In this document: in pieces, positions 12,588-22,518 of the stretch
Position numbering within the stretch: position 1 is the stretch's first letter
Layout of the letters: each line of letters opens with the position of its first letter
Assembly (NCBI GenBank): GCA_028284185.1
Contig: JANQSG010000018.1
Location: 241,642 to 305,641, forward strand
Origin: Kangiella sp.
GTDB taxonomy: Bacteria; Pseudomonadota; Gammaproteobacteria; Enterobacterales; Kangiellaceae
Reading direction: 5' to 3'
Length of the DNA stretch: 64,000 bases
Position numbers and translations under genes: made by a program
The notes under the pieces: model-generated
What the model was told of the DNA's origin: nothing
Seen by the model: the letters and a program-made list of their open reading frames with translations, nothing else
The model's database searches: none

Positions 12588-12674
12588 GCTCGGGTGGTGG
12601 AATTGGTAGACACGCTATCTTGAGGGGGTAGTGGCTGTATGGCCGTGTGGGTTCAAGTCCCACTCCGAGCACCA
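12588..12674 (+). tRNA. tRNA-Leu (anticodon GAG)
   Basis: 87 nt, GCTCGGG/TCCGAGC acceptor stem, TTGAGGG anticodon loop, GTTCAAGTC T-loop, encoded CCA. Confidence 0.95.
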
Positions 12675-12682
12675 AATGAAAA
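12652..12682 (+). repeat. attL core (3' end of tRNA-Leu)
   Basis: TTCAAGTCCCACTCCGAGCACCAAATGAAAA. Confidence 0.88.
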
Positions 12683-12685
12683 TTC

Positions 12686-12711
12686 AAAGACGTCTTAGGG
12701 CGTCTTTTTTT
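12686..12711 (+). terminator. Terminator downstream of tRNA-Leu, on the element side of attL
   Basis: AAAGACG...CGTCTTTTTTT. Confidence 0.7.
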
Positions 12712-12859
12712 GTGCCAAAAATAGTTTAAAAACAGTTGGTTATAGAATTTAGCGTCTAAAGGCGTATTTTAACGTCTTGCTAAATCCAGCGTTTAATGTA
12801 ACACTGAATGTCACATTTTGATGATAATGTTACATTGACTGGGTTAGGCGGGTGTTACA

Positions 12860-14119
12860 TTGGCAAATACTACAAGGCCACTAACGGACTTGGAAATCAG
12901 GAAAGCTCCTATCAAAGAAAAGGAATATAGCCTGGCTGACGGCAAGGGGTTGTTCTTAAGGGTTAAGCCCACAGGCTCAAAGATATGGATATTCAATTAC
13001 CAAAGACCATTTTCAAAGAAACGCGCCAATATGGGGCTAGGCGTTTATCCAGAAGTTACTTTGACCGAAGCCAGGGCATTGAGGGCTGAGTATCGAAAAT
13101 TACTAGCTCAAGAGATACCAGAAGATCCTCAGGACTACCGAAAGCAACAGCAGCAAGAGCAAGAAACCGTCCATACCAATACTTTTAAGGCTATCTTTGA
13201 TCAATGGACTGAGAGCAGACGAAATAGCATAACTGACGATCACCTAAAAAGAGTTTCGAGGTTATTAGAGAAATATGTATTTCCTGCTCTTGGTAACAAG
13301 CCAGTCCATTTAATTAAATCAACAGATTTCATTGCCTTGCTTCGTCCGCTGGAAGCGCAAAACAAATTAGAAACGGTTAAAAAGGCAATCCACAATATCA
13401 ATGGTGTAATGAACTATGCAGTGAATTATGGGCTAATTGATAACAACCCGGCTCATGCAATTAGAGAAGTCTTTAAAAAGCCACAGCGTACCCACATGGC
13501 GACTTTAGAGCCTGATCAACTGCCTGAGCTTATGAGCGCATTAAACTTTGCCAATATCAAGCTACAAACTCGCTGCCTGGTGGAGTGGCAATTACACACC
13601 ATGACCCGCCCCAGCGAAGCCTGTGGCGCAAGATGGGACGAAATAGAGTTAGAGCAAAAACTATGGGTTATCCCTGCTGAAAGGATGAAAGGACGAAAAG
13701 GCAAAAAGAAACAGCATATAGTCCCGCTTACTGAACAAACGATTGCTTTACTGGAAGTCATGCGCCCGATTAGCGGACAAAGAGAGCATATATTCCCTAA
13801 TGACCACGATCCTAAAAAACCTATGAATAGCCAGTCGGTAAACATGGCTTTAAAAAGAATGGGCTTTAAGGGACGTCTTGTCGCGCATGGTTTGAGAGCA
13901 TTAGCCAGCACCACCCTAAACGAACAAGGCTTTAATCCTGATGTGATTGAGGCGTGTTTAGCTCATGTGGGTGGTGATGAAGTTAGAAAAGCGTACAACC
14001 GTACCACCTACCTGGAGCAGAGAATTAAAGTCATGGCCTGGTGGTCAGACTTTATAAAGCAAGCCTCACAAGGCAACTTAAGCCTGAGTGGAGCTAGGAA
14101 CTTACGAATAGTCAAATAG
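12860..14119 (+). CDS. Tyrosine recombinase/integrase (N-terminal DUF4102-like, C-terminal phage integrase)
   Basis: LTDLEIRKA..YSLADGKGLFLRVKPTGSKIW; catalytic R (TRPSE), HGLR, LAHVGGDEVRKAYNRTTY; TTG start. Confidence 0.95.
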   Translation: MANTTRPLTDLEIRKAPIKEKEYSLADGKGLFLRVKPTGSKIWIFNYQRPFSKKRANMGLGVYPEVTLTEARALRAEYRKLLAQEIPEDPQDYRKQQQQEQETVHTNTFKAIFDQWTESRRNSITDDHLKRVSRLLEKYVFPALGNKPVHLIKSTDFIALLRPLEAQNKLETVKKAIHNINGVMNYAVNYGLIDNNPAHAIREVFKKPQRTHMATLEPDQLPELMSALNFANIKLQTRCLVEWQLHTMTRPSEACGARWDEIELEQKLWVIPAERMKGRKGKKKQHIVPLTEQTIALLEVMRPISGQREHIFPNDHDPKKPMNSQSVNMALKRMGFKGRLVAHGLRALASTTLNEQGFNPDVIEACLAHVGGDEVRKAYNRTTYLEQRIKVMAWWSDFIKQASQGNLSLSGARNLRIVK

Positions 14120-14136
14120 ACAAAGGAGTATGAAAT

Positions 14137-14385
14137 ATGAGTTATTCAATTGAAGAAATTCACGGTAACAGAAATCCTTTAATCGGTAATTGCGTAGAAG
14201 ATACACAATTGAATGTTGAAGCAGTTCTTGCTTACATGCAGTCGATTACATTAGTTGATGGTGGTGGTGAAGTAGATCTAGATGCTCGTCAGCTAACAGG
14301 GTTTTTCTATCTAATGGAGTGCACTAGAGCAGCCGTAGCTTACACTGGTTATGGTAAAGAAAATATCAAGGGGGTAGCACAATGA
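14137..14385 (+). CDS. Small hypothetical protein
   Basis: 82-aa ORF with upstream AAAGGAG; ATGA overlap with next ORF. Confidence 0.7.
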   Translation: MSYSIEEIHGNRNPLIGNCVEDTQLNVEAVLAYMQSITLVDGGGEVDLDARQLTGFFYLMECTRAAVAYTGYGKENIKGVAQ

Positions 14386-14612
14386 GCCAAAATAGCAATG
14401 CAATAGACGTCCTTGATATATTAAACCAGGCTCAAGACAGAGTTTGCCACTTAATGACTACTTTAGAAAATGAATATGAAGGTGATACTGGTGTGCCCAT
14501 CAAAGATGGAGCAAGGGCTGGTCGTGATTTGATTGTTCATGATATTTATAAAGAACTTGAGCAAGCTATTTCGATACTATATGAAAGTGAAGATAATAAT
14601 ACCCGGCAATAA
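14382..14612 (+). CDS. Small hypothetical protein
   Basis: 76-aa ORF, translationally coupled to the preceding ORF. Confidence 0.65.
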   Translation: MSQNSNAIDVLDILNQAQDRVCHLMTTLENEYEGDTGVPIKDGARAGRDLIVHDIYKELEQAISILYESEDNNTRQ

Positions 14613-14625
14613 TTTTTAACCCGAT

Positions 14626-14680
14626 TTAACCAGTCTAGGGTAGCTCCCGAAAGCCTAACGCCTATAGGTTGGCTGGTTAA
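14626..14680 (+). ncRNA. Candidate three-way-junction RNA in the leader of the 274-aa ORF
   Basis: Outer stem TTAACCAG/CTGGTTAA, hairpin GGG-TAGCT-CCC, hairpin AGCC..GGCT. Confidence 0.45.
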
Positions 14681-14708
14681 TACTTAGGCAGAACATGGAG
14701 GCAGTGTT

Positions 14709-15533
14709 TTGATTGATGATTTTGCTCAAATAGATTTAGATGAGCTCAGAAAACTAACCTCAAATATTGAGGAACATTATCTTGCAGATGAGCTTGAACA
14801 GTTGTTTAAAAGAGCATGCGTTCGTTATGCCAAAGCTTCATATAAATATGTAAATATAGATTCTCTATATGAAAATGGTGTTGATCCAACTGAAAGAGGG
14901 GCGCTATTTATTGCTATTTATAATGCTCTGAAATACAAAAAAGATAAATTGAACAAACTAACCAAAGTCGAGCTAAAGGATTTATGCAATGACATTTCAG
15001 ACAAGCTTCTGGAATCAGCAAGGTTTATAGAGCAAATTGGTGCAAATTATATTTTGCTTCCTTTAACACTTGAGATTTGTTGCGATAAAGATTTAGAGGG
15101 ATTGTTACACCATAGTTTTAAAGATGGACTTGTTTTTGAACACAATGAAGAGTTAACTAATGAAATAAGAAATGCATTGAGAATATATACAAGAAAGGTA
15201 AGAGCAAAAAATCAATTAAGAATTACTGAATTATTAACAGCATATTCTGAATTTATCAAAAAAATTCCAAGCAAATATACTAAAATTGTTTTAAAGCCTG
15301 GTTCAAAAAATGCAGAATTAACATTTTTTTGTAGAAAAATGAAGCAGTTTTTTATGTGCCAATATAATACTCCAAACCATGAAATAACATCTATATTGGC
15401 TAATATGTTTTTTGGAGATGAACATAAAAATTATGATGCAAATGAGATTCGACACATAACCCGTGGCTTTTTTGACGATTCTGAAGAATGTTTTTACGGG
15501 GATGTTTTTCTAGAAAAACGCTTAAAAAACTAA
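14709..15533 (+). CDS. Hypothetical protein (274 aa)
   Basis: TTG start with GGAGG at 14697-14701; no family recognised. Confidence 0.75.
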   Translation: MIDDFAQIDLDELRKLTSNIEEHYLADELEQLFKRACVRYAKASYKYVNIDSLYENGVDPTERGALFIAIYNALKYKKDKLNKLTKVELKDLCNDISDKLLESARFIEQIGANYILLPLTLEICCDKDLEGLLHHSFKDGLVFEHNEELTNEIRNALRIYTRKVRAKNQLRITELLTAYSEFIKKIPSKYTKIVLKPGSKNAELTFFCRKMKQFFMCQYNTPNHEITSILANMFFGDEHKNYDANEIRHITRGFFDDSEECFYGDVFLEKRLKN

Positions 15534-15605
15534 CTCCATAAAATAAACTTTTTCATCAATACTAATCCTGTATCAACTTAACTTGTTTAACAGGAGCTAT
15601 TTAGT

Positions 15606-15794
15606 ATGAATAAGATATTACGTTTACCAGAAGTTACTGCACGCACTGGTCTAAGTCGTGCAACCATTTATTTAAAAATCCAGAACAAAGACTTTCCCGA
15701 ACCAGTTTCTTTAGGTGCTCGCGCTATTGGGTGGAAAGAATCTGACATATCAGAATGGATTGAGTCTTTATCCACCACCAAGCAAAGCGCATAA
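15606..15794 (+). CDS. AlpA-family transcriptional regulator
   Basis: RLPEVTARTGLSRATIYLKIQNKDFPEPVSLGARAIGWKESDISEWI. Confidence 0.95.
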   Translation: MNKILRLPEVTARTGLSRATIYLKIQNKDFPEPVSLGARAIGWKESDISEWIESLSTTKQSA

Positions 15795-15804
15795 GGGGGA
15801 AGTG

Positions 15805-16119
15805 ATGAAACAAAAAAATACCCCTGCTCAGAACACTAAACAAGGGCATCAAAAGACTAAGTTCTATTCTACAAATGTTAACGCTCAACAGCAAAGGCTT
15901 TTAAAGGCTCTTGAAAATGCTGGCCCAGATGGAATTACTACCATTCAAGCCAGGCATGAGTTAGATATTCTTCACCCTGCTGGCCGCGTCTGTGAATTAC
16001 GGCACGATCACGGCAAGAACATACAAACCATATGGACAGTAGAAACTAACCCTAATGGTGGTGAACATCGAGTAGCCAGGTTTGTGTTATTGCCAGGAAA
16101 GTATAAGGCGGTAGCATGA
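15805..16119 (+). CDS. Small winged-helix/HTH-like protein
   Basis: LLKALENAGPDGITTIQARHELDILHPAGRVCELRHDHGKNIQT; start set at internal ATG 15805. Confidence 0.75.
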   Translation: MKQKNTPAQNTKQGHQKTKFYSTNVNAQQQRLLKALENAGPDGITTIQARHELDILHPAGRVCELRHDHGKNIQTIWTVETNPNGGEHRVARFVLLPGKYKAVA

Positions 16120-16280
16120 TGGACTGGTCACTGTATTTGGTGGCCGATAAAGCTTTAAATTTGCGGGTGGTGAGGTTATTGGCCTATAGCCATACTCATG
16201 CCAGGCAAACCATGCAAAGGCTTTATCAGATCCACCCTGAGCGTATTTCAATACTTTGTCATATCCCCCTTGTTGATTGA
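16116..16280 (+). CDS. Small hypothetical ORF (54 aa)
   Basis: ATGA overlap with preceding ORF; below the ORF-track cutoff; MMDWSLYLVADKALNLRVVRLLAYSHTHARQTMQRLYQIHPERISILCHIPLVD. Confidence 0.4.
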   Translation: MMDWSLYLVADKALNLRVVRLLAYSHTHARQTMQRLYQIHPERISILCHIPLVD

Positions 16281-16293
16281 GTAAGGGGGCTTT

Positions 16294-16698
16294 ATGGGAA
16301 AGCACGCTCAAGGGCGACCAGCCAAAAGGCAGGGAATGTGGTTTCCTGATCTTTTGTATGATGATCCAGTCTATATTCAATTATCTTTGAAAGCTAAAGC
16401 ATTACTATTGGATATGGGCAGGCAGTTTAATGGCCATAACAATGGCAACTTGAAACTAAACTCTACCTACATGGCGAAATATAGAGGTTTTAAGAAAAGT
16501 ACTGTTGAAAGGGCTAGAGATGAATTGCTAACTGCCAAACTTCTTGAAATCACTTATCAAGGGGGACTGAACATTGGTGCTTCTTGCTATGGATTTACCT
16601 GGCTTCCTATTAATGAATGCAAATCAAATATTCATATTCGAGAGGCAAAAACACCTTCTCGGCCACTAAGAAAATTAAATTCACTGACCTCAGGCTGA
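16294..16698 (+). CDS. Rep-like helix-turn-helix protein
   Basis: 134 aa; FPDLLYDDPVYIQLSLKAKALLLDMGRQFNG...YRGFKKSTVERARDELLTAKLLEITYQGG; overlaps iteron-like repeats. Confidence 0.65.
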   Translation: MGKHAQGRPAKRQGMWFPDLLYDDPVYIQLSLKAKALLLDMGRQFNGHNNGNLKLNSTYMAKYRGFKKSTVERARDELLTAKLLEITYQGGLNIGASCYGFTWLPINECKSNIHIREAKTPSRPLRKLNSLTSG

Positions 16699-16822
16699 GT
16701 ACTGACTGACCTCTCTGTGAGTACAGTGGAAGCTAAAATTAGCCAAAATTGCCCTTTCACTGACCTCAGGCTGAGTACGAGAGAGGCTTTTTTTTGCATT
16801 CACTGACCTCTCTCTGAGGTAC
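16681..16822 (+). repeat. Four iteron-like repeats (22-23 bp), candidate origin/Rep-binding region
   Basis: 16681-16702, 16703-16724, 16757-16778, 16800-16822; consensus TSACTGACCTCWSNSTGAG(G)TAC. Confidence 0.8.
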
Positions 16823-16967
16823 ATTTAATATATAACCATACCCTATACATAAAATAGCGTTTAGGTGATTAGTAATATTAAACACTAATCTAAGAAACTC
16901 CATTTCGATGATGACATTTAAATCAATCTAGTTAGAATAGCTTGAAACTCAAACAAGGATAACTGAA

Positions 16968-17846
16968 GTGATAAGAGTAATAGTTGTAGCATTATTTTTT
17001 TTAATTAGCTGTGATGCTAAAAAGCCTAAAATTGATAAAAGTGCATTTGAAGACTTAGATTTATATAAGTGTGTTTTAGAAAATTTGGAGAGAGTCGGCA
17101 CAGTTTCGTCAGATGCTACAAATAATAAAATCACAAATAAGTTTGATCATCTCAGCTGTACGGATAGTTATGAAAGTTATAAAGGATTAGAGCAACTAGA
17201 CGATCTGGTAGTGGTAATCCTTTCTCCTTATAAAGCTACGGACTTATCACCATTATCGGGTTTATCTAACTTAAAATCATTAACATTAATGGGGGGTAAC
17301 ATTGAAGATGTTACTCCTCTTGCACAACTTACCGAGCTTAAACATTTAAATATTAATTGGAATAATATTAAAGACATTTCGCCCTTAAGCGCACTTACGA
17401 ATCTAGAGAGCTTATATTTAGATAAAAATCAAATATCCGATATATCTGCCTTGAGTAATCTTCACAAACTTAAAATATTGCATTTAACTGATAATAATAT
17501 ATCCGAAGTCAAAGCTCTTCGAGGTTTGCTAGCGCTTGAGGAGTTATACTTAAATAGAAATGAAGTTGTAGGCGCGAACCCGATAAAAGATGCGACACCA
17601 CTTCTTCAGTTAAGTAACCTCAAAAAATTAGGCCTTATTGGCGATACTATAAACTGTGATCACAGAAAGCTTTTGAGAGAAACGTTTTCTAATATTGTTG
17701 ATATTCCTGGTAATGGCTGCCCTTCTAAGTTTCCCTGCACCGCAATGAAGGATATGCAGGAGCGTCATGGCGATGAATTAAAGTATGACTTTGAAGCTTG
17801 CACCGTTACCTTCCCGACCGAGGCAGAGAGCCTAAAACGAAATTAA
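16968..17846 (+). CDS. Leucine-rich-repeat lipoprotein (internalin/SDS22-like LRRs)
   Basis: Signal peptide with lipobox LISC; LRRs such as ISPLSALTNLESLYLDKNQISDISAL. Confidence 0.88.
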   Translation: MIRVIVVALFFLISCDAKKPKIDKSAFEDLDLYKCVLENLERVGTVSSDATNNKITNKFDHLSCTDSYESYKGLEQLDDLVVVILSPYKATDLSPLSGLSNLKSLTLMGGNIEDVTPLAQLTELKHLNINWNNIKDISPLSALTNLESLYLDKNQISDISALSNLHKLKILHLTDNNISEVKALRGLLALEELYLNRNEVVGANPIKDATPLLQLSNLKKLGLIGDTINCDHRKLLRETFSNIVDIPGNGCPSKFPCTAMKDMQERHGDELKYDFEACTVTFPTEAESLKRN

Positions 17847-17976
17847 GAGGTTTTTCCTCACTATAAAAAAGGGTAAGGTTACGGTAAGGTTCAATTCAAT
17901 TAATATCAGCCAAGTTAGCCCAATAACTACCTTATAAAACAAATACTTATGAGTTTTGCAACCAATACGCGCGCGT

Positions 17977-18045
17977 GAGTTTTCGGACACGTTAGAAAAA
18001 GAGTTTTTGGACACCTTAAAGAAGAGTTTTCGGGTGCCATAAAAG
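17977..18045 (+). repeat. Three degenerate ~24 bp direct repeats
   Basis: GAGTTTTCGGACAC.., GAGTTTTTGGACAC.., GAGTTTTCGGGTGC.. at 17977, 18001, 18024. Confidence 0.6.
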
Positions 18046-18306
18046 GACTTTCTCTTACACTATAAAAAGACAGGGGGGCTTGCTTCGTAACTTATTGATT
18101 TTTATTAAGAAAGAAGTCAACTGGGGGGCATATTTTGTAAGCTATTGATTGTAAAACCAAATCCCGTGATAACGATTAGACATTATAAGACAAGGGTTTT
18201 GATCAAAATAAGCCTTACCTATGGTTAGGTATTGCTTAAGGTGAGAAAGTGGCTTAAATGATCAGTTTAGTGTATTTTCAAGCAAATTATTAATATCCAA
18301 AAGCGA

Positions 18307-18948
18307 ATGACGACCATATTAAAAGCCAATCGGCTAAAAGGAGAATCTATTGAGTACCAATCAATATCAATGGTTTCATATTTTTTATGTTGGGCAGGAG
18401 AATACGCTAAAAAAGCTCTAGAACCTAAGCTTAATGATGAGCAGAAATTAAAATACTCAATTAGTTCAATAATGATGAACAGCTTATCACTAGAAGCTTT
18501 TATTAATGAGCGTGCCGAAAATGTCATTTCTGACGAAAACAAAATAAATTTTGATAGATGTAGAAAAGAGTTTGCTAATAAAACTAATTACAGCAATACG
18601 GTATGGAAACTAATATTTATATTTAACACTGAGCTTGATACTGATTTACCAAAAGAACTGTTAATAGCACTAGATAACTTAATGCAGTCCAGGCATAAGC
18701 TTGTGCATTACAAATGCGAAGAGTCTGCTAGAAAAATTAAACGGAGAGCGCCAAGTACAGATGACATGTTTTCAATCGATTTCTCGTCTGAACCATTAGA
18801 AGTTGAGCCTAGTTTAATCGAAAAAAACTTAACACCTACTAAAGCAAAAACTCATTATGAAGCCGTTCTAGAGTTAGCTAGAACCTATATTAGACTCAAT
18901 GATGGCGACTTGTCAGTCTTGGATGAATATCCTGCACTGAACCCATAA
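18307..18948 (+). CDS. Hypothetical protein with HEPN-like Rx4H motif
   Basis: Alpha-rich 213 aa protein with SRHKLVHYK. Confidence 0.6.
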   Translation: MTTILKANRLKGESIEYQSISMVSYFLCWAGEYAKKALEPKLNDEQKLKYSISSIMMNSLSLEAFINERAENVISDENKINFDRCRKEFANKTNYSNTVWKLIFIFNTELDTDLPKELLIALDNLMQSRHKLVHYKCEESARKIKRRAPSTDDMFSIDFSSEPLEVEPSLIEKNLTPTKAKTHYEAVLELARTYIRLNDGDLSVLDEYPALNP

Positions 18949-19023
18949 TGTAACACTGTTTGTAACATCGGATTAATGTGCTTTATTCTATATTTGTTAT
19001 AAAACAATTGGTTGCAGAACTAT

Positions 19024-19054
19024 TTCAAGTCCCACTCCGGCACCAAATGAAAAA
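19024..19054 (+). repeat. attR core (partial tRNA-Leu 3' end)
   Basis: TTCAAGTCCCACTCCGGCACCAAATGAAAA; single-base deletion relative to attL. Confidence 0.88.
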
Positions 19055-19134: not shown

Positions 19135-20166
19135 ATGTTCTTGTTTGATGTATTTATCAGATTTACTGGGCTAGGTTTTTTGCTAATTATGATTTTGGCT
19201 CTTTTGATTCAAAAGAAGTTTACACCTAGTTACTTTTTTTTGTTATTTTCTTGTTTTAGTCTATTTTGCTTATTATTGGGTTTTTCCCCTGAATATATAC
19301 AGTTGCCAAGTAATGTTAGATTTATAGTGAGGTTGTTTGATATACCTCATTTAGTATTTATTTGGCTATTTGCTTTATCCTTGTTTCAGCATAGCTTTCG
19401 GCTTAAAGTCTATCATGCTCTTATTATAATCGGTTATTGTTTACCAATTTTAGTAGTGCGTTTAGGGCAATTCGGCTTTTTGCCTGAGGCGCACTATTTT
19501 TGGTTCTTATTTTCAAGTTTGTTCTCCATAGGATTAATGATTCATTTAATAACAGTAACTCTTTATGGGAAAAAGGATGATTTAGTTGAAAAAAGAAGAC
19601 GAGCAAGGAATTACTTTGTAGTTCTTATTGGTTTTATAACTATTGGGGTAGCTATATCAGAAATTTTGTTGGTTAAAGATAACCTTAATCTTTTGTATAC
19701 AATAAAAGCCATGATTATTTGGGTAGGTATTCTTTGGGCTGCACTATGGTTATTAAAGTTAAACGAATCACCATTTAGTGATGCTATTAACAAAGCAAAT
19801 CATATCGACTTAACTCAGAGGGACCAGCAATTGATAGAACGGTTAGAAGAGCAGTTTACTGAGCATAAAATTTATTTAGATGCCAAACTTACGCCTGAAT
19901 TATTAGCTCAAAAAGTAGGGTTGCCCACCTATAAATTAAGAGAATTAATTAATAAAAAATTAGGTCATCAGAATTTTAGCAGTTATGTAAATAGCTATCG
20001 TATTGAAGCTGTAAAACGATTACTAAAAAACCCTTCTAAACGTGATATACCTATTTTAAGTTTGGCATTAGAAAGCGGATTCAGTTCTTTATCTCCTTTT
20101 AACAAAGCATTTAAGTCTAACGAAGGTATTACCCCTTCAGAATTTAGAAAGAATATAAGTTATTGA
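19135..20166 (+). CDS. AraC-family transcriptional regulator with N-terminal multi-TM domain
   Basis: Several TM segments then AraC-type HTH (LTPELLAQKVGLPTYKLRELINKKLGHQNFSSYVNSYRIEAVKRLL). Confidence 0.9.
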   Translation: MFLFDVFIRFTGLGFLLIMILALLIQKKFTPSYFFLLFSCFSLFCLLLGFSPEYIQLPSNVRFIVRLFDIPHLVFIWLFALSLFQHSFRLKVYHALIIIGYCLPILVVRLGQFGFLPEAHYFWFLFSSLFSIGLMIHLITVTLYGKKDDLVEKRRRARNYFVVLIGFITIGVAISEILLVKDNLNLLYTIKAMIIWVGILWAALWLLKLNESPFSDAINKANHIDLTQRDQQLIERLEEQFTEHKIYLDAKLTPELLAQKVGLPTYKLRELINKKLGHQNFSSYVNSYRIEAVKRLLKNPSKRDIPILSLALESGFSSLSPFNKAFKSNEGITPSEFRKNISY

Positions 20167-20271
20167 TATTTGAAGAATTGACTAGCTTTTGATGGTTTTT
20201 CGATAAGAGTCCGCTCTTATTTTATCGTAATGTTGTGGCTAGTATAATCTATCGTAAGAGATATAAACTTT

Positions 20272-21585
20272 ATGAGAGCTTTTATAACAATAGCAGCATT
20301 ACTATGCTTCTTTGCTTATACTCCGGTGAACTTTGCAACAATTAACAAAATCTACGATCCTGAGAGCTATAGAGAAGACATAGATCAATTAGTGACATCG
20401 GTTAAGGAAAATCATCCAAGACCGTTTATGTTTATTTCTGAAAAAGAATTTAATCAATTAGTTGATACCAAGAAAAATGAAATAACCAGTAAAACTACTT
20501 ATGGCCAATTTATATGGGATATGAGTGAGATTTTGGCTTCTATCGGTTGTGGTCATTCGAGCTTTAGATATTACTTTATTCAAGAAGACAATATCCTTCC
20601 TACCAATAGTCGTTTTCCAATGGATGTTAAGGTTTTTGGGGATAGATTATATATTACAGATCCTCTGATAAATTCTAAAAATTTGAGTAAGGGGCAAGAG
20701 ATTTTAACGATTAATGGTAAAGATACTCAGGTGATTTTAAGTGATATTTATACGCATATTTTTGCAGATGCAAACTTAAAAGGTAGTAAACGCTTTAACT
20801 TCAATGTATTTGCAAATAGCTATCTTGCCTATTACTTTGACCTCACGAATACTTACTCAGTGAAGGTTAGTGGCAACAAGGATGAAGTTAGGCTAACAAT
20901 GCTAACGGATTATAAACACAAACCAATGATTTCACCTAAAGATGGTTGCCAAGATCAATTGTGTCTAGAGTTTATTAACAGTAATACCGCCAAGCTTACG
21001 GTAAGAACATTTAATTATTACGGTGAACGTAGCAAAATATTTGAAGAATTTATTGATAAAAGCTTTGCTGAGATTAAGGCAAGAAAACCTCAAAACTTGA
21101 TAGTAGATATTCGTGGAAATGGTGGCGGAAACTCTTTTTCAGCAGCATATTTACTTGCACATATTGCAGATAAAGAGTTCATTTTTTATAAAGAATATGC
21201 CCCAGGAGCGGAAAGATTAAAGCAACCCATTGAGCCTTATCCGAATGCTTATCACGGAGATGTTTATGTAATAACTGATGGTAGTGATGGTTCTAGTGCA
21301 GGATTCTTTTTGTCTTTAGCTAAAAGTAATAGCTTTGCAGTAATAATTGGAGATGATTCAGGATCTAGTTTTTCAACAAATGCGGGTTATAAAGATCATG
21401 AACTTAGAAATACCGGTATTAAGTATCGAGTTTCAACGGTTATTATGGATACTAATGTTGATGGTTTAATTTATGGAAAGCCAATTAAGCCTGATTATAG
21501 AGCTGTTCAATCAATAGATGATTACCTAAATAATAAGGATACTATTCTAGACTTCACTATTCAGATGATAAACTCAAAGAATTAA
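20272..21585 (+). CDS. S41-family peptidase-like secreted protein
   Basis: Signal peptide; NLIVDIRGNGGGNSFSAAYLLA and TDGSDGSSAGFF motifs. Confidence 0.85.
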   Translation: MRAFITIAALLCFFAYTPVNFATINKIYDPESYREDIDQLVTSVKENHPRPFMFISEKEFNQLVDTKKNEITSKTTYGQFIWDMSEILASIGCGHSSFRYYFIQEDNILPTNSRFPMDVKVFGDRLYITDPLINSKNLSKGQEILTINGKDTQVILSDIYTHIFADANLKGSKRFNFNVFANSYLAYYFDLTNTYSVKVSGNKDEVRLTMLTDYKHKPMISPKDGCQDQLCLEFINSNTAKLTVRTFNYYGERSKIFEEFIDKSFAEIKARKPQNLIVDIRGNGGGNSFSAAYLLAHIADKEFIFYKEYAPGAERLKQPIEPYPNAYHGDVYVITDGSDGSSAGFFLSLAKSNSFAVIIGDDSGSSFSTNAGYKDHELRNTGIKYRVSTVIMDTNVDGLIYGKPIKPDYRAVQSIDDYLNNKDTILDFTIQMINSKN

Positions 21586-21633
21586 TATTAAGCTGCAGCC
21601 ATACTGTTTTAGCCTCTGGATTGAATCTACAAT

Positions 21634-22518
21634 TTAAATGATTTTAAGTTGCTTTAGCTTGGTTTGAACTTGTTGGAGCAGCTCTTGATCTAGGGACACT
21701 TTCTTATACCATTGGGTGGTATCTAGCCAAGTATGAACGTCTTCTAATTCCAACTGATATTGGCTGGCAATCAGTTTGGGAGTAATTTTTGATTTTTTGA
21801 GCTGCTTGGCTGTTCTTAACACGGTTTTCATCAGCTGTTTAAGCTGCTTGGGGTGTTTTTCCAGCACGGATTTTCGCACACAAGTGACAAAGCAAGACCA
21901 AGGGGTTGGGAAGTCGACAATTCGGCGCATTTCACCATGATCCACAAAGGGTTTGGTCATAAACTTTTCCCACAGGAAAACATAATTACCGCCTTGACGG
22001 AACAGTGCGCGGGCACCTTTAAGGTTATCAATGATTTCAAACTGTAAATTATGAATATCCAAACCCAGAGATTCTGCCAATAAATAGGCCATTAGATGCG
22101 AACCAGAGCCAAAACGACTAATGGCAAAAGTGGTATTTTTAAGATCTTGTAAACTGTGTAAGTCTGACTGAGTTGGAACATGCACACCCCAGATTAATGG
22201 TGTCTTGGTATAAAAAGCATAGAGTTCAAATTGAGCTTTAACTTCCGCCGAGTCGGCCACTGCCTTAATGGCGCCTTCAGTTAATAAAGTCGCTACATCC
22301 ACTTCATCATTATTCAGCGCTTGCACCATAGCACCCGTGCCGCTATGAAATTCTTTCCACTTGGCATCAATGCCGTGTTTTTTTAAAGCGCCAGAATTAA
22401 TGGCTAAACGCCAGGGTAGATTAAAGTGTTCGGGTACGCCACCGACTCGTAATTTGATCATGTTGGATTCAGATTTCATGTTGTGATTATAACAATGAGT
22501 ATAAAAATTTTTATACAT
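21634..22518 (-). CDS. NMT1/THI5-like substrate-binding protein (no evident signal peptide)
   Basis: LRVGGVPEHFNLPWRLAINSGALKKHGIDAKWKEFHSGTGAMVQALNNDEVDVATLLTEGA. Confidence 0.75.
   Translation of the reverse strand: MYKNFYTHCYNHNMKSESNMIKLRVGGVPEHFNLPWRLAINSGALKKHGIDAKWKEFHSGTGAMVQALNNDEVDVATLLTEGAIKAVADSAEVKAQFELYAFYTKTPLIWGVHVPTQSDLHSLQDLKNTTFAISRFGSGSHLMAYLLAESLGLDIHNLQFEIIDNLKGARALFRQGGNYVFLWEKFMTKPFVDHGEMRRIVDFPTPWSCFVTCVRKSVLEKHPKQLKQLMKTVLRTAKQLKKSKITPKLIASQYQLELEDVHTWLDTTQWYKKVSLDQELLQQVQTKLKQLKII

Follow-up and report, generated by a model that had tools for sequence, protein, structure and literature searches.

A PICI-type satellite backbone without capsid or primase genes, probably a minimal phage satellite, at tRNA-Leu(GAG) in Kangiella

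The phage-inducible chromosomal islands (PICIs) of Gram-negative bacteria (GN-PICIs) are described as elements of 10-20 kb with int, alpA and pri (PMC6092414, PMC10111431), and the phage-inducible chromosomal minimalist islands (PICMIs) of Vibrionaceae are recognised by models that require int, alpA, a DUF3987/DUF5906 primase and fis (PMC10803314). Deletions in tRNA genes that begin at a specific acceptor-stem site have been traced, in the set of one study, to PICIs in every case and to prophages in none, and the damage was suggested to be adaptive, crippling the tRNA when the element departs (PMC10111431). Here we analyse a 6.37 kb element inserted in a tRNA-Leu(GAG) gene, downstream of secG, in a marine Kangiella (genome of 2.5 Mb, 99.9% complete); the 64-kb stretch of DNA that holds it, G000:C7, is called the window throughout. 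We read it, with a probability of roughly 0.7, as a capsid-less minimal element of phage-satellite type belonging to the PICI lineage, because its gene order and its Rep, AlpA and integrase families match those of capsid-carrying PICI-type satellites and its right attachment site, attR, is damaged. Its features, in window coordinates, are the following.

12588..12674, plus strand: intact tRNA-Leu(GAG), the target gene (ARAGORN; Rfam tRNA, 9.5e-8)
12652..12682, plus strand: core of the left attachment site, attL, the tRNA 3′ end in common with attR (repeat alignment)
12684..12714, plus strand: terminator carried by the element in place of the original tRNA terminator (unlike the four empty sites, like the left end in G012)
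12797..12815, plus strand: doubled arm motif TGTAACACTGAATGTCACA, 136 bp right of the attL centre (motif scan)
12860..14119, plus strand: tyrosine integrase (int), 419 aa, with arm-binding, core-binding and catalytic domains (Pfam, 5e-28, 8e-24 and 2e-22)
14137..14385, plus strand: orf82, beginning 17 nt past the int stop, no family match (Pfam, PHROGs)
14382..14612, plus strand: orf76, in ATGA overlap with orf82, no family match (Pfam, PHROGs)
14709..15533, plus strand: orf274, between int and alpA, no family match (list of open reading frames, ORFs)
15606..15794, plus strand: AlpA family excisionase/regulator, 62 aa (Pfam PF05930, 5.7e-20)
15805..16119, plus strand: HTH_39 winged-helix protein, 104 aa (Pfam PF14090, 6.8e-15; 69% identical in G019)
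16116..16280, plus strand: orf54, kept in G015 and G019 (53-56% identity)
16294..16698, plus strand: O-like replication initiator (Rep), 134 aa, signature RQ(Y/F)NGxNNG (weak PHROG DnaD/O-like matches, 6e-4 and 2e-3; winged-helix model)
16680..16821, plus strand: four iterons, start-to-start 22, 54 and 43 bp (~2, 5 and 4 helical turns; repeat search)
16822..16900, no strand: AT-rich stretch after the iterons, 72-78% A+T, candidate unwinding element (composition)
16968..17846, plus strand: cargo, leucine-rich repeat (LRR) lipoprotein, single copy in the genome (Pfam LRR_4, 7e-20)
18307..18948, plus strand: cargo, putative helical protein with an RX4H (HEPN-like) motif (ORF; low-confidence model)
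18949..18967, plus strand: doubled arm motif TGTAACACTGTTTGTAACA, 82 bp left of the attR centre (motif scan)
19024..19053, plus strand: attR, displaced tRNA 3′ end minus one A at acceptor-stem position 70 (alignment with attL and empty sites)

This layout overlaps in part with each of the described systems. As in the GN-PICIs (PMC6092414, PMC10111431), int, alpA and a replication gene with its origin just downstream are present, lytic genes are absent, the attachment site lies in an RNA gene and the tRNA fragment is damaged; unlike them, the element has no primase and no terS or capsid gene and measures 6.4 kb rather than 10-20 kb, an initiator with downstream iterons standing in place of their primase. 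With the PICMIs (PMC10803314) it shares a size of ~6 kb, the lack of capsid-remodelling genes, a gene adjoining or overlapping int that is followed by alpA and then by the replication gene, and accessory or defence genes in last place, but PICMIs have a primase and always lie at fis, whereas the window element has its O-like initiator with iterons and lies at tRNA-Leu(GAG); it is PICMI-like in size and layout, minus two of the defining features of PICMIs. Contigs of IMG/VR that resemble capsid-forming PICIs (cf-PICIs; L101, L106, L117, L124 and others) have in common with it the integrase, AlpA, the O-like Rep family and iterons after rep, and most of them also the winged-helix protein, whereas the window element is about half their size and lacks capsid, protease, portal, small and large terminase (TerS, TerL) and connector genes, so that the slot after rep, which holds capsid, portal and terminase genes in these contigs, holds cargo instead. 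Finally, the intY/alpA islands at transfer-messenger RNA (tmRNA) genes that are moved by jumbo phages (PMC12595487) also have a tyrosine integrase, AlpA and defence cargo, and their tmRNA target recurs in relatives of the window element; these islands carry YqaJ, RadC and Gp2-like genes, and the second tmRNA element of G015 (L180, on G015:C3), whose integrase is related and whose replication protein is YagK/REP_ORF2-G2P, is closer to them than the window element is. The element is therefore neither a canonical PICI (no primase, half the size), nor a cf-PICI (no capsid genes), nor a PICMI (no DUF3987/DUF5906 primase, not at fis).

A first-pass annotation, made from the letters of the window, had described a compact satellite-like element with its own replication module and no genes for self-transfer, which gene content and relatives support, and had been unable to match it to any named family; it can be placed, as its backbone and attR damage match PICI-type satellites. 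The block that it listed (int, coupled small ORFs, orf274, AlpA, a helix-turn-helix (HTH) protein, a Rep-like protein with iterons and the LRR lipoprotein) was confirmed, int and alpA being co-oriented on one strand (Pfam), and its statement that no capsid, terminase, tail or relaxase gene is visible held up in Pfam and PHROG scans, where none of these families was matched among the element's ORFs; one marginal PHROG terminase match of the integrase (E=0.07) is taken as chance. Likewise, tblastn with cf-PICI proteins as queries returned no capsid, portal or terminase genes in the element, no mobilization or mating family of Pfam matched any of its ORFs, and no primase family of Pfam, the DUF3987/DUF5906 primase included, matched in the element up to E=1. 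A structured leader proposed before orf274 did not stand, since this DNA folds no better than its shuffles (z -0.23) and has no Rfam match, and of the proposed HEPN-motif protein the RX4H motif is present, while the protein has no family or PDB match and its helical model is of low confidence.

A real, bounded integrative element at tRNA-Leu(GAG) is confirmed. The direct repeat of ~31 bp from the tRNA 3′ end, already taken as the boundary of the block in the earlier annotation, aligns at 12652-12682 and 19024-19053 in 31 columns that include a single 1-nt gap (E=2e-8 in 22 kb) and is the sole significant copy pair in the 22 kb compared, and the empty site that had been named as a check is present in four congeners (G010, G015, G016 and G017), where the tRNA 3′ end is intact and the terminator follows directly. 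In three of the four this terminator is of the type AACCG...GCGGTTTTTT, and the window has a terminator of that type to the right of attR; what adjoins attL on its right, ATTCAAAGACGTCTTAGGGCGTC, came with the element and is seen again in G012. Because the terminator of the empty sites now lies right of attR, the element supplied its own tRNA 3′ end and terminator, displacing the originals. At the same tRNA-Leu, G012 carries a deletion derivative (L051, G012:C3, ~13620-15380) from which int through rep are gone (~4 kb) and which retains attL, part of the iterons and of the AT-rich origin, the right end and a damaged attR, with different cargo.

The attR fragment is one A short in comparison with attL and all four empty sites, at acceptor-stem position 70 (assigned by hand numbering). 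A deletion starting at this position is found in 6 of 6 Kangiella cases, with intact empty sites: beside the window element, one nucleotide is lost at position 70 from a tRNA-Ser in G015, from a tmRNA in both G019 and G007 and from the tRNA-Leu of the G012 derivative, and two nucleotides are lost from position 70 of a tRNA-Met in G011. A like deletion occurs in members outside Kangiella (L160, L192, L193, L213, L227, L231), and other members are undamaged (L187, L199, L208, L235, L236). That such damage is adaptive by crippling the tRNA we treat as a hypothesis only. The arm sites add a second likeness: the doubled motif TGTAACA-N5-TGTAACA occurs exactly twice in the 64-kb window, and in five elements arm motifs, in variants particular to each element, lie at 80-84 and 128-140 bp from the attachment-site centre. 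The islands called HE-PICIs have another doubled motif at 81 and 132 bp, which the paper describing them did not find in other PICIs, and the likeness is one of geometry, not of sequence. For G019, a candidate attR at L045:14359 was dropped in favour of L045:14188-14203, which is consistent with both the position-70 damage and the arm geometry.

The replication module can be followed from the initiator into the adjoining DNA. A structure prediction for Rep from a 64-sequence alignment gives a winged helix (mean predicted local distance difference test score, pLDDT, 83.5), the fold of which finds its matches in winged helices of a generic kind, RepA_N initiators and DnaD among them, and, within viral models, in a lambda O-like protein. 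At least four copies of a 10-mer (1 mismatch allowed, within 400 bp) follow rep in 21 of 36 elements, compared with 0/36 in the upstream control and 0/36 in shuffled DNA, and Reps more than 70% identical share at least six nine-mers after rep in all eight pairs, as other pairs rarely do. This tracking of Rep likeness by origin sequence fits a Rep that would bind its own iterons; common descent alone would also explain part of it. The iteron set of G011/G019, GTACAGAAnCTGTAC, is other than that of the window, and the GAGGTA(C/T)ATTTAATATATAACCATA-type segment of the AT-rich stretch is present again in the G012 remnant. No relatives of Rep were found among plasmid records, nor any close viral-contig relatives of Rep or the integrase by single-protein query.

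The backbone, in the order int, one or more ORFs, alpA, winged-helix gene, short O-like initiator, iterons and AT-rich DNA, is widely distributed. Rep-bearing elements are found in 4 of 20 Kangiella genomes (at tRNA-Leu, tRNA-Ser, tRNA-Met and tmRNA; 4.4-8 kb, with different cargo), in 22 of 369 genomes sampled across the class, at 76 loci in a collection of named species representatives, mainly Gamma- and Betaproteobacteria, and on 58 IMG/VR contigs, int lying typically ~2-3 kb and alpA ~0.7 kb before rep (76 named and 18 class-level loci). The comparable int-alpA-HTH-rep blocks by which the first-pass annotation proposed to check itself thus exist in those 4 Kangiella genomes and at those 76 named loci; what it held decisive against itself was a lack of such blocks and of empty sites, or the presence of phage structural or conjugation genes, and the former were found while the latter were not. 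Delimited capsid-less members span 4.1-8 kb, among them elements of Simiduia (4.1 kb), Kangiella (two members, 4.4 and ~4.5 kb), Marinimicrobium (4.4 kb), Rhodanobacter (5.2 kb), Pseudomonas baetica (5.7 kb) and Neisseria (6.8 kb). The Rep family matches only 1 of 50,697 phage records and so marks satellites and not phages; it matches no plasmid record. PP003913.1 (L040, Pseudomonas phage vB_Pae_U1, 16 kb), has int, cox, an O-like Rep and a primase; its annotation lists no structural gene, and it resembles an island of satellite type more than a phage.

The same backbone heads capsid-carrying elements. On L101, AlpA and the Rep family are followed by Phage_capsid, Peptidase_S78, portal, HNH, TerS-like, TerL and head-tail connector genes (Pfam), and capsid-type genes follow rep in about half of the IMG/VR contigs. 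Terminal repeats, which would point to a circle, were found in none of the IMG/VR contigs. Mapped on the Rep tree, the capsid label has to switch 22 times, with 15 of the switches imposed by supported branches (shuffled labels lead one to expect 25.6), and the capsid module would therefore seem to have been gained and lost often on this backbone. Two separate Kangiella Rep lineages, both capsid-less, appear on the tree, and the Rep of a capsid-less element in G137 is 81% identical to that of the capsid-bearing L149. At a tmRNA of G009 (L179, G009:C1:556000-568000), a 62%-identical integrase is followed by an ORF, AlpA, a Lin1244-type initiator, a small terminase (Terminase_2, 3.7e-10) and a 1258-aa nSTAND protein; the same integration module therefore stands at the head of an element that has a small terminase of PICI type.

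From protein families and anatomy, the integrase, with AlpA as excisionase, would recombine attL with attR, and the circle would replicate from its own origin, the initiator acting on four phased iterons beside the AT-rich stretch as lambda O does at ori, a step suggested by anatomy and by the co-variation of Rep and iterons. Movement would need a helper, because the element has no capsid, terminase or relaxase gene; to judge from the relatives, this helper, most likely a virulent phage, would lend capsid and packaging, and the slot after the origin, taken up by capsid or defence genes in relatives, holds the cargo. As the attR fragment is damaged, excision would leave a broken tRNA-Leu(GAG) and so discourage loss of the element, if the crossover falls 5′ of position 70. 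Terminase_6N, the one terminase family scanned as a prophage marker, and Phage_capsid, the other marker, are each found in 1 of 20 Kangiella genomes, neither of them element-bearing, and neither marker occurs anywhere in the window genome. Kangiella seems nearly free of such prophages while bearing several satellite-like elements, and because its genomes lack the tested markers, a phage helper, if there is one, would more likely be a virulent phage, as in the case of PICMI (PMC10803314). More tentatively, satellites of 4-8 kb with an O-like initiator and its own iterons but no primase, terminase or capsid may form a class that is widespread and still without a name; they would live off virulent phages and keep their host by way of a damaged tRNA or tmRNA copy, which would render excision costly, and capsid modules would join and leave the same replicon again and again.

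Several points weigh against the satellite interpretation. Excision, replication, packaging and transfer are all deduced from sequence, and no helper, cos or pac site was identified; the primase required in GN-PICIs and PICMIs is absent; no helicase-loading domain can be seen in the 134-aa initiator, whose O/DnaD family match is weak and whose fold resembles generic winged helices; the integrase is without a close relative in viral contigs; and the capsid label rests on profiles built here, which may overlook divergent capsids, though the Kangiella elements themselves were small enough for inspection of their whole length. Mobilizable islands also have Int, AlpA and a plasmid-like replicon, the best PDB sequence matches of the Rep profile are plasmid RepA_N initiators, if weak ones, and the repeats at 17996-18041 offer a possible cis site, all of which would suit a small integrative mobilizable element excised by Int and AlpA and served in trans by the relaxase of a conjugative element acting on an oriT-like sequence; this is nevertheless unlikely, as no relaxase or mobilization family was matched in the element by Pfam or PHROGs, the relatives bear capsid, portal and terminase and not mobilization genes, and the attR damage is of PICI type.

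We rate lower still a cf-PICI-like satellite or prophage in decay, left without its capsid module and persisting as a static island of defence or cargo genes. The backbone is common to capsid-carrying contigs and a true deletion derivative is known in G012, but here backbone ORFs, both arm sites, both attachment sites and iterons are all intact, intact capsid-less forms of 4.1-8 kb occur at other sites and in other genera, and capsid genes are missing from both Kangiella Rep lineages. Least probable, in our judgement, is an independent, convergent class of small islands, which would have no more in common with satellites than often-traded int, alpA and rep modules and would travel by natural transformation or generalized transduction: such a class would accord with the modularity of the four-gene block and with a genus almost without the tested prophage markers, yet gene order and spacing are kept across genera, and tRNA damage and arm geometry match those of PICIs.

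The cargo and surroundings complete the description. The int-alpA gap of relatives holds a poorly conserved ORF at the position of orf274. PADLOC matched no known defence system in the window cargo, though it did match some in relatives, and a HEPN fold for the RX4H protein was rejected (weak single-sequence model, mean pLDDT 54.6; no PDB or plasmid homologue). After rep, G015 carries TIR/SpbK-like and PDC-M72B proteins, and delimited relatives carry an MmeI restriction enzyme, PD-Lambda-2 and a HigB toxin in this slot, with no capsid, terminase or relaxase among the 30 ORFs scanned. Between the two cargo genes of the window element, 17964-18041 is non-coding and holds about three tandem copies of GAGTTTT-GG type, possibly a cis site, and a GGACAAATACGCGCG-like stretch occurs in G019. 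Beyond attR, 19135-22518 encodes an AraC-family regulator, an S41 peptidase and a substrate-binding-protein-like gene; this variable region without attachment-site repeat separates attR from the hydrolase gene, which lies directly after the tRNA in G010 and G015, and as a tandem element it was ruled out, no third attachment-site copy being found.

The element is best described as a variant of the PICI-type satellite backbone that lacks both capsid and primase genes. Current satellite models in which a primase is obligatory would probably overlook such elements, because their replicon differs from the primases used for detection. The finding raises the question of the minimum gene number of a phage satellite, the smallest delimited relatives, of 4.1-4.5 kb, lying under the 6.1-kb PICMI. 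The shared backbone makes the gain and loss of capsid genes as a module testable, and the position-70 damage makes the idea of tRNA addiction directly testable in a marine non-model bacterium.

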